Below, one piece after another: positions 47,114 to 51,391 of a DNA stretch of 64,000 nucleotides (positions within the stretch are counted from its first letter, which is position 1; each line of letters begins with the position of its first letter). A program made the translations under genes and the position numbers. Source of the stretch: an uncultured Pelagibacteraceae bacterium (GTDB lineage Bacteria; Pseudomonadota; Alphaproteobacteria; Pelagibacterales; Pelagibacteraceae); the NCBI GenBank assembly GCA_902633335.1, contig CACPFY010000002.1, positions 62,001-126,000 of the forward strand. Reading direction: 5' to 3'. The notes under the pieces are model-generated. The model ran no database searches, was not told where the DNA came from, and saw only the letters and a program-made list of their open reading frames with translations.

Positions 47114-47236
47114 TTACTCAGAGTGCTTATTCTTTTTTTTCCTCTTAAAACTGCCTTTGCCTTTTTTAGGTTTAACAATTCTTGTTCGATATTTTGGAGT
47201 CAACAAGTCTTTTGCAAATTTATTTCTTTTTTTCAA
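47114..47236 (-). CDS. arfA: ArfA-like alternative ribosome-rescue factor, 40 residues (not in ORF track)
   Basis: A small basic ORF in the gap between the PfkB gene and the OmpR-type gene. It begins at a TTG that overlaps the upstream stop (ATTTGA), giving MKKRNKFAKDLL followed by TPKYRTRIVKPKKGKGSFKR and a Lys-rich tail. The PxYRxRVVKxKKGKGSYxRK pattern is the ArfA signature. ArfA recruits release factor 2 to free ribosomes stalled on mRNAs without a stop codon. The non-ATG start and the overlap suggest translation coupled to the regulator gene. It is too short and lacks an ATG, hence its absence from the track. Confidence 0.75.
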   Translation of the reverse strand: MKKRNKFAKDLLTPKYRTRIVKPKKGKGSFKRKKKNKHSE

Positions 47237-47868
47237 ATTGTGTAACCCTTTTTTTCATTCTTAATAAACTTCTCATCTTTAAATACTTCTTTAATCTTTT
47301 TTCTAAGTCTATAAATATGAGTTTCTACTGTATGTGTGTCAGCATCTTCAGAATACTTCCAAATTGTTGATAATATTTCTTTTTTTTTAATAAAATTTTT
47401 TTTGTAAAGTAATTCTATCAAATCTATTTCTTTTTCGGTTAATTCTAATGTGAGGTCATTTTTAATTAACTTTCTTAAGTTTTTGTCTAGTTTGTAATCA
47501 TTTATTTTTAAAGATGAGTTGATCTTGAACTCTTTTTTTACAATGTTATTTATTATAATCTTATTAATCTGATCTACAGATGCTGGCAGAGATAATTTAT
47601 CAACATCTTTTAAACCACTAGGTTTTTTAGAGCTATAAAAGATAATTTTATTAATATTAGAATTTTTTATTACTTCTCTAAAATTTTTATCAATTAATGC
47701 ATCTTCGTGAATTATTAAGCCTTTATAATTTTTAAGGTTTTTATTATCTTTAAAATTATCAACGACTTGTAGATTGAAATTAAAATGATTTTTAAGCTCT
47801 ATTAAAGAATTATTAAATTCTTTATTTCCTAATGCTAAAATGATATTTTTTTTATCAATCATGGACAT
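47233..47868 (-). CDS. OmpR/PhoB-type regulator with degenerate receiver domain
   Basis: A 211-residue protein with a clear C-terminal winged helix of the OmpR class (LTLELTEKEIDLIELLYKK, ILSTIWKYSEDADTHTVETHIYRLRKKI, NEKKGYTI). The N-terminal 115 residues have receiver-like spacing, but the acidic pocket (ALGNKEF), the phospho-acceptor Asp (GLIIHEDALID) and the Lys (SLPASVDQI) are not conserved. It should therefore act without phosphorylation. No sensor kinase is nearby. Its start codon overlaps that of the divergent YkuD gene. Confidence 0.8.
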   Translation of the reverse strand: MSMIDKKNIILALGNKEFNNSLIELKNHFNFNLQVVDNFKDNKNLKNYKGLIIHEDALIDKNFREVIKNSNINKIIFYSSKKPSGLKDVDKLSLPASVDQINKIIINNIVKKEFKINSSLKINDYKLDKNLRKLIKNDLTLELTEKEIDLIELLYKKNFIKKKEILSTIWKYSEDADTHTVETHIYRLRKKIKEVFKDEKFIKNEKKGYTI

Positions 47869-49590: not shown

Positions 49591-50676
49591 TTAGAATGCA
49601 AGAGTCAATGCTAAGATCGTCTCTGTTACGTCCGTATTGTTCGAGTAGCTGTCATTAGTTACTTCTGAATTTGAAAGTCCTAATGTTGCTCCACCGATTG
49701 TATACGCTACGTCGATAGTAGTGATTTCCATCTCTACATCGCTTCTAGTAGTAGTATTTGCTAAAGCAGCTTTCTTCTTTTGCACTTTTGTTGAACTCTC
49801 TTCAGTGAAAGAGATAGAAAGATTGTCATTTACTGCAAAACCGATTGAATATGCATCGTTTTCGTAGTGTTGAACTGCAGCTGAGTCTTTTGTTGTAAAG
49901 ACACCTTTTTGCTGCGCTGCTGCGTGCAATGTTTCACCATAACCTAATGACACTTGACCAAGTGTGTAGTTCGCTGAATATGAACCACCTTCTCTTGTTT
50001 GTCTGTCATCTACGCTGCCTAAATCACCAAAAGTGTAGTAAGAAGCTTTTAGGCTTAAGCCGTCGATAGGCGCCATAGTTAGTGCGTATTGCTTCATAGA
50101 ACCAGCGTGTGTAACACCTGTTGTAGAGTGAACAGAGTCGTTAGCTGTTCCACCTGCTCTACCTGGAGTCATCGCTGCTTTGAAAGTAATACCTAATGGT
50201 AATACATCTGCTGGAGTGTGGTACTGAATGTTATTGTATGAGTTGATGTTCGCTCCATACTGCATAGTAGAAGTAGTCGCTGAACCTCCACCATAACCTG
50301 TGTCAGAACCTACGCCGTAAGCAGAGTTATCAAAACCGTACTTAGTTGATAATGGACACTCAGATACACAAATTTTGAATGTACCGTAGTCAGTTCCGAT
50401 TGCTACGTTAGCATCGTCCTGTACTGTTGCACCGTCAATGTCTTGTGCATATGACCATGTCATACCGTTGTCAAGTTCGCCAGATGCAGTTAAAGAAAAT
50501 TCGTTAGATATACCAACTCCTTTTCCAGATGCATGCGTACCTGATGTTCCGTCTTGTCCCATAATAGTGTAAGTTGCCTTAGCACCACCAGTTACTGCAA
50601 ACTCACCAGCAAAAGCTGATGTTGAAAGAGCTACTGAAGTCAAAACTGAGAACAATATTTTTGTTAATTTACTCAT
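49591..50676 (-). CDS. Outer-membrane porin
   Basis: A 361-residue secreted beta-barrel protein. It starts with a signal peptide (LTKILFSVLTSVALSTSAFA, cleavage after Ala) and then alternating-residue strands, ending in the porin-type C-terminal Phe (LALTLAF). It is rich in Gly, Ser and Thr and has higher GC and less A/T-biased codons than its neighbours, as expected of a strongly expressed gene. A strong Shine-Dalgarno sequence (AGGAGAAAC) precedes the ATG. The diffusing solutes cannot be read from the sequence. The gene stands alone with its own promoter and terminator. Confidence 0.85.
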   Translation of the reverse strand: MSKLTKILFSVLTSVALSTSAFAGEFAVTGGAKATYTIMGQDGTSGTHASGKGVGISNEFSLTASGELDNGMTWSYAQDIDGATVQDDANVAIGTDYGTFKICVSECPLSTKYGFDNSAYGVGSDTGYGGGSATTSTMQYGANINSYNNIQYHTPADVLPLGITFKAAMTPGRAGGTANDSVHSTTGVTHAGSMKQYALTMAPIDGLSLKASYYTFGDLGSVDDRQTREGGSYSANYTLGQVSLGYGETLHAAAQQKGVFTTKDSAAVQHYENDAYSIGFAVNDNLSISFTEESSTKVQKKKAALANTTTRSDVEMEITTIDVAYTIGGATLGLSNSEVTNDSYSNNTDVTETILALTLAF

Positions 50677-50698
50677 TTGTTTCTCCTTTGTTTAAAAC

Positions 50699-50714
50699 GT
50701 TAATTATAATTAAC
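50699..50714. promoter_or_regulatory. Perfect palindrome in the porin leader
   Basis: GTTAATTATAATTAAC is a perfect 16-base palindrome located 23 bases before the porin ATG, just ahead of its Shine-Dalgarno sequence. It could be an operator, or form an RNA hairpin that affects translation. In AT-rich DNA short A/T palindromes occur by chance, so this is only moderately supported. Confidence 0.45.
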
Positions 50715-50783
50715 AGGATATTTATCTTCCTTTTTGAAGGTGAATTGTACGAAAACTTAGTAAATAACACCAAATTCTAAATA

Positions 50784-50805
50784 GGTGTGATAATTATACC
50801 ACACC
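50784..50805 (-). promoter_or_regulatory. Porin promoter with palindromic operator
   Basis: On the minus strand a consensus TATAAT (50798-50793) lies inside the inverted repeat GGTGTG...CACACC (50784-50805), so a bound repressor would cover the -10 box. A GGTGTT copy follows a few bases downstream. The -35 hexamer is not clear. The leader to the ATG would be about 110 bases, long for this genome, in line with regulated expression. Confidence 0.55.
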
Positions 50806-50881
50806 AAAAAAGGCCCTATTTACCTTCATTTTCATTGGATTTTGAACTAACAATGCTATTTAATGGTCTGAGATCCAAAAA

Positions 50882-51391
50882 ATGAGAAATTTTATCAAAA
50901 TAATTGCATGTTTTATTCTTTTTTCATCAATAGTTTCTTGTGGAGGTTTTAAAAAAGTTGATTCGAGAAAAGTACCCATCTCTGGTCCCGAAAGAGCAAA
51001 ACAAAATGTGAAAGAAGGTCGAGGGATTAGCCTTGGAAAGGCTGTGGGTAGAGGATCTACTAATTATGAATTCAGCACTTCTAATCCAATGTGGAGAGCT
51101 ACTCTTGATGTTTTAGATTTTTTACCTCTTAGCACAGTAGATTATTCAGGAGGAGTTATTATCTCAGATTGGTACACAGATAACTCAAATAAAAATCAGG
51201 CACTTAAAATTACAGTTAGATTTTTATCTAATACAATACAAACAAATAGTATCAAAGTTACCGTACATAGTAAAAAATGCTCTGTTAATCAAACATGTAA
51301 TGTTGAGATATTTAAGTCAAGAATACAAGAAGAACTTGTTGCGTCAATTTTAAGAGAGGCATCAATTTTAGAAAAACAAAAAAAAAAATAA
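50882..51391 (+). CDS. DUF3576 lipoprotein
   Basis: A 169-residue lipoprotein with a signal peptide and lipobox SIVSC; the mature N terminus is CGGFKKVDSRKVP. The body matches the DUF3576 pattern (NPMWRATLDVLDFLPLSTVDYSGGVIISDWY; a C-terminal EELVASILREASILEK). Its position directly upstream of leuS is characteristic of alphaproteobacteria. Function is unknown; by location it is an outer-membrane or periplasmic lipoprotein. leuS follows after 12 bases. Confidence 0.87.
   Translation: MRNFIKIIACFILFSSIVSCGGFKKVDSRKVPISGPERAKQNVKEGRGISLGKAVGRGSTNYEFSTSNPMWRATLDVLDFLPLSTVDYSGGVIISDWYTDNSNKNQALKITVRFLSNTIQTNSIKVTVHSKKCSVNQTCNVEIFKSRIQEELVASILREASILEKQKKK

Follow-up and report, generated by a model that had tools for sequence, protein, structure and literature searches.

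Porin genes across SAR11 (Pelagibacterales) are preceded by two elements at a nearly fixed spacing: an upstream dyad whose halves vary independently, and an AT-rich palindrome whose arms change in concert and which lies directly behind the -10 signal. The explanation that we prefer, with a probability of roughly 0.6, is that an activator-type site at the dyad and an extended -10 drive a porin mRNA that is stabilised by a 5'-terminal stem-loop formed by the palindrome.

The porin locus and the comparison set

The window, by which we mean the whole 64-kb stretch of DNA that was analysed, comes from a SAR11 genome assembled to 949 kb in 21 contigs and 81% complete. The region studied sits between a porin gene on the minus strand and a divergent DUF3576 gene on the plus strand, which is followed by leuS. 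Its features are as follows.

49591-50676, minus: porin gene, 361 aa with a signal peptide (open reading frame)
50683-50689, minus: Shine-Dalgarno sequence of the porin, AAAGGAG (sequence reading)
50699-50714, minus: perfect 16-bp AT-rich palindrome, GTTAATTATAATTAAC, predicted 5'-terminal mRNA stem-loop (comparative)
50714, minus: transcription start as predicted from the -10 element, to within a base or two
50720-50727, minus: predicted extended -10, AGATAAAT (kept in close relatives; peaks of the hexamer and of the extended form)
50766-50771, minus: GGTGTT copy, judged not functional (absent from relatives)
50786-50803, minus: upstream dyad, TGTGGTATAATTATCACA, consensus TGTkRYA-N4-TRYmACA, predicted site of a dimeric regulator (comparative)
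50835-50862, plus: likely divergent promoter, TTGGAT, 16 nt, TATTTA (sequence reading)
50882-51391, plus: divergent lipoprotein-like gene, DUF3576 (Pfam PF12100)

The porin of the window has no Pfam hits, and the homologues found through it match Porin_4. The upstream regions of these homologues, with protein identities down to approximately 24%, formed the comparison set, which covers the genus, other genera of the family and the sister family; the named relatives are uncultured Pelagibacteraceae and Pelagibacterales. A closer comparison used the 11 relatives whose leaders can be aligned with that of the window. The dyad and the AT-rich palindrome both recur across 143 of 144 related porin leaders, and the DUF3576 gene adjoins the porin in all 79 loci where this was scored. 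Second copies of tandem porins (L029, L030, L140, L142) have neither dyad nor palindrome, and are presumably read from the promoter of the first copy.

The upstream dyad

The repeat GGTGTG-ATAATTATAC-CACACC, with TATAAT embedded in it on the minus strand, is present at 50784-50805, as the original prediction had described it. The dyad within it has a single exact match in its own genome. A weight matrix built from 58 sites located a single clear site in all of the 77 training leaders (77/77), the training loci lacking one being L140 and L142, apparently second copies of tandem porins. All 44 held-out leaders also have a site, which is weaker in two of them. The dyad is found in other genera and in the sister family as well, and in the 11 close relatives it is still a dyad, with altered letters (TGTTGTAAATTTACAACA, TGTGGTATATATACCACA).

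Across 66 leaders, with close relatives thinned, positions G2, T3, A16 and C17 of the dyad are invariant. The two halves otherwise vary independently, being identical in 4 leaders compared with 5 expected when halves are shuffled among leaders. Because they agree no more than shuffled halves do, each half would seem to be read alone, as by a protein dimer. The dyad thus has what is expected of an operator, namely inverted half-sites recognised separately and a fixed place relative to the promoter. It is most likely the binding site of a dimeric regulator, centred approximately 80 bp upstream of the predicted start.

The TyrR box is TGTAAA-N6-TTTACA, and the CRP site is TGTGA-N6-TCACA. The SAR11 dyad resembles these operators in its conserved TGT...ACA ends and in its location well upstream of the promoter; it differs from them in consensus and spacing and in being nearly specific to porins. 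To our knowledge its consensus and spacing match no described operator site.

Exact matches to the dyad in other SAR11 genomes mostly precede porins. In some SAR11 genomes this dyad, with no palindrome, precedes smaller genes resembling outer-membrane β-barrels (L313, L314, L319), two of which have weak Pfam matches and the third none. Matches before porins and before barrel-like genes point to a regulator of the outer membrane. The next best site in the window's own genome, of which about half was scanned, scored 11.7 compared with 22.6 and lies before an O-antigen-ligase-like gene; it was left uncounted as a second dyad. Most leaders also have an A-rich tract at a fixed distance, approximately 26-30 bp after the start of the dyad, and this tract is unclear in the window's own clade.

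The window encodes an orphan winged-helix regulator (Trans_reg_C) at 47233-47868 on the minus strand, in which no receiver domain was recognised, and a winged-helix gene occurs in the porin neighbourhood in 66 of the 79 loci. Its proximity makes this protein a candidate for the regulator that binds the dyad. A RegB/ActS-type kinase was also considered as a lead to the regulator; it occurs in all 26 SAR11 genomes tested and is therefore uninformative.

On the other side of the dyad, the TTGGAT and TATTTA hexamers of the likely divergent promoter are both kept in most of the 11 relatives, and the sequence puts the dyad approximately 75 bp ahead of the start predicted for the DUF3576 gene. Since it is upstream of both predicted starts, it may serve both genes. 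The distance between the dyad and the DUF3576 gene is variable across loci, which makes control of that gene by the dyad less certain.

Promoter and predicted transcription start

The original prediction took the TATAAT inside the repeat to be the promoter, and the leader to be long. Relatives read TATTAA, TATATA, CAATTA or CATTTA in place of this TATAAT, and an extended -10 adjoins the palindrome instead. The 11 close relatives have AGATAAA/T upstream of the palindrome. When leaders are aligned on the palindrome, the first base of TATAAT-like hexamers falls most often 12-14 nt ahead of it (131 leaders). The extended form, TGnTATAAT, is commonest at -14 to -17, and a C-rich stretch comes after it. 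The gap between -10 and palindrome is the usual distance from a -10 to a start, so the mRNA is predicted to begin at the first base of the palindrome (50714). This gives a leader of 38 nt in the window, with a median of 37 nt over 117 leaders, which is short.

If the TATAAT of the dyad were nevertheless the -10, the leader would be approximately 110 nt long and would contain the palindrome as a hairpin at a fixed distance from the start; TGGTATAAT in the window does resemble an extended -10. We consider this very improbable, because relatives lose the TATAAT and keep the dyad, and because the -10 signal peaks just before the palindrome while no promoter-like column was found at a fixed place downstream of the position of the TATAAT. 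A further copy of the repeat half, GGTGTT, is present where it had been reported (50766-50771, minus strand); it is absent from relatives and we do not regard it as functional. Conservation in related porin leaders, the lack of which had been named as a ground for refutation, therefore holds for the dyad and the palindrome and fails for the TATAAT and the GGTGTT copy.

The palindrome at the predicted start

The perfect palindrome GTTAATTATAATTAAC, already noted before the Shine-Dalgarno sequence in the original prediction, is present at 50699-50714. It has one exact copy in the genome and is unchanged in the 11 close relatives. Within the window alone, sequences with up to three mismatches to it are no more frequent than expected by chance, and it is the comparison between genomes that reveals an excess. 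Arms of at least 8 bp occur in 62 of 79 training leaders, where the remaining sequence of these loci would lead one to expect 0.74. In a scan of 144 leaders along the distance from the dyad, 95 had a palindrome with arms of this length at a centre distance of 86-93, and most other distance intervals yielded 0-1 leaders; the 4 leaders at distance 0 are the few perfect dyads.

The distance between the centres of dyad and palindrome is nearly fixed, mostly 85-92 bp with a mode of 87-88, and is 88.0 in the window. The palindrome usually lies just upstream of the Shine-Dalgarno sequence, at 23-40 nt from the ATG across leaders. Being locked to the dyad and loose with respect to the ATG, it takes its position from the promoter, not from the ribosome-binding site.

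The sequence itself turns over rapidly: there are more than 50 different palindromes (for example AAATTGTAATTACAATTT, GTTTTAATTATTAAAAC, AGTTAAATATTTAACT, GTTTATTTAAATAAAC, TTTAATAATAATTATTAAA and ATTCATATGAAT), and at least 8 leaders have only short ones with arms of 5-6. A DNA operator would be expected to have a shared half-site, and these more than 50 palindromes have none in common. The arms are identical over 8 bases in 20 of 37 unique cases with an even centre and in all 15 with an odd centre, where approximately one is expected from shuffled arms. The inner pairs were used to pick the centre in this test, so that a fair comparison is confined to the distance-window scan and, in the even class, to the outermost pairs, 7-8, which agree in 62-68% of cases compared with 31-38%. 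The concerted arms in more than 50 palindromes and the position-specific excess over control windows indicate that the pairing of the stem is conserved and not its sequence. G-U and A-C mismatches in the arms are too few to separate selection on RNA from selection on DNA.

These observations bear on whether a second dimeric protein, probably a repressor, could have its DNA operator in the palindrome, at +1 to +16, with the symmetry reflecting two equal half-sites. Such a site would account for symmetry that runs through the centre and for a position fixed relative to the promoter. Against this, more than 50 unrelated sequences in one genus would require a constantly shifting specificity while the dyad stays the same, and the halves of a protein site drift separately, as they do in the dyad, whereas the arms of the palindrome move together. 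We therefore regard a second operator as unlikely.

Folding and symmetry of the palindrome

Folding predictions for 15 °C contain the stem in 106 of 117 leaders. The stems are weak, with a median of -1.1 kcal/mol at 37 °C and -3.8 kcal/mol at 15 °C. Folded as a single sequence, the window's leader is no more stable than its shuffles, and the evidence for the stem is comparative. A scan of the 64-kb window with Rfam 15 gave no family at the gathering score, and thus no match to a catalogued leader RNA or riboswitch.

Approximately 10 leaders (including L105, L198, L217, L242, L244 and L248) have an asymmetric loop on a stem that is kept. This minority suggests that the stem is the core feature, and favours a stem-loop as the functional form. 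Most leaders are symmetric also where the loop would be: this is so for 23 of 28 four-nucleotide loops, compared with 25% expected for loops of A and T, and for 21 of 22 three-nucleotide loops, compared with 50%. The symmetry through the centre thus goes beyond what a hairpin loop needs. Together with the weakness of the stem and the leaders whose palindromes are short, it counts against a plain 5' stem-loop.

Pairing between molecules would explain directly why complementarity spans the centre, and is alone in doing so: a porin mRNA would pair head to head with a second one, or with a different RNA that has the same segment, and the duplex would affect decay or translation. The predicted homodimer, at approximately -20.7 kcal/mol compared with -3.8 kcal/mol for the hairpin at 15 °C, is consistent with this. 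An RNA-RNA duplex would explain both the symmetry and the sequence turnover, where a DNA operator would explain the symmetry only. The asymmetric loops of some leaders argue against it, and we know of no precedent in bacterial mRNAs. We give this reading little credence, and as little to its stronger form, in which selection on the start of the porin mRNA, and perhaps on that of the proteorhodopsin mRNA, has favoured head-to-head pairing of two copies over their full length, and not a hairpin. If that were true, the cell would sense the concentration of its own porin mRNA with no regulatory protein.

The symmetric centres might also be a by-product of mutation, if template switching during replication rewrote whole palindromes and selection kept only the stem. 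This would account for the wholesale turnover and for the perfect centres, and as regards function it is compatible with the stem-loop that we favour. It too appears highly unlikely, as related leaders differ by single symmetric pairs (GTTTTAATTATTAAAAC and GTTTTAAATTTTAAAAC), apparently stepwise, and hairpins in the amino-acid-binding-protein leaders of the same genomes have asymmetric loops.

Palindromes in other SAR11 leaders

In the approximately half of the genome that was read, the longest palindromes before genes include those before the genes for proteorhodopsin and for an amino-acid-binding protein. Palindromes before genes are weakly above a control stretch in this genome, with only 62 genes passing the filter. 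The proteorhodopsin leaders (L324-L351; in the window's own genome upstream of C1:43701-44468, minus strand) have TAGTTTA-W4-TAAACTA approximately 40 nt before the start codon. Among the relatives compared the centre is TTAA, ATAT or TATA, and is always palindromic. With its fixed outer half-sites around a variable and yet palindromic centre, this leader is a point in favour of the DNA-operator alternative.

The leaders of the SBP_bac_3 amino-acid-binding proteins (L354-L383; in the window's own genome upstream of C3:73032-74078, plus strand) have ordinary covarying hairpins with varied loops (for example GAAACTTCGTTTC), many of them asymmetric. The hairpin lies approximately 7 nt after a -10-like hexamer and is followed by an invariant palindrome, TATTGTTAACAATA. 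An ordinary hairpin so close behind a -10-like signal in these genomes speaks for the stem-loop reading of the porin leader. Genes of the proteorhodopsin kind and of the binding-protein kind are highly transcribed in SAR11 (Table 2 of PMC5069720). These leaders suggest that many abundant SAR11 mRNAs may carry a stem-loop at the 5' end, as sampled in about half of one genome.

Discussion

In the mechanism that we propose, a dimeric regulator would bind the TGTkRYA-N4-TRYmACA dyad, approximately 80 bp ahead of the start; it would most simply be an activator, and may act on the divergent DUF3576 gene too. RNA polymerase would use the extended -10 directly before the palindrome, so that the palindrome would come first in the mRNA and form a short AU stem-loop at its very 5' terminus. 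By analogy with ompA, decay enzymes would then find no single-stranded 5' end to act on, and the Shine-Dalgarno sequence would stay free. The layered control of an outer-membrane protein put forward in the original prediction survives in that the order has kept both the operator-like dyad and, apart from it, a palindrome at the predicted start; the mechanics proposed for it do not.

The E. coli ompA mRNA is stabilised by a 5'-terminal stem-loop (Emory et al., 1992, as cited in PMC7509114). The SAR11 porin leader is similar in placing a stem-loop at the predicted 5' end of the mRNA of an outer-membrane protein, with the ribosome-binding site free downstream. It differs from ompA in that the stem is AU-rich, weak and mostly palindromic through its centre, its sequence turns over fast, and the start is a predicted one.

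A survey of structured RNAs in Pelagibacter reports SAR11 leader elements (PMC2704228), and the porin is absent from it. It is also absent from a study that searched for inverted repeats upstream of light-regulated SAR11 genes (PMC3090418). That study discarded repeats with no C or G, and would thus have missed many palindromes of the porin type. Nor is the porin in Table 2 of a Red Sea study of transcription starts (PMC5069720). We found no description of the porin-leader element in the literature searched, which scarcely covers subscription journals, and an earlier description is possible.

SAR11 ranks with the most abundant groups of ocean cells, and few of its regulators are known. Across the order its porin genes keep one layout, an operator-like site followed approximately 88 bp further on by a self-complementary predicted start, in which the letters vary and the mirror symmetry stays. 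Arms that change together through the centre are at odds with a simple hairpin and with a simple protein site alike, and this misfit poses a sharp and testable question. The conserved layout offers a concrete route to the regulator of the SAR11 outer membrane, and also makes it possible to test whether 5'-terminal stem-loops protect abundant SAR11 mRNAs.
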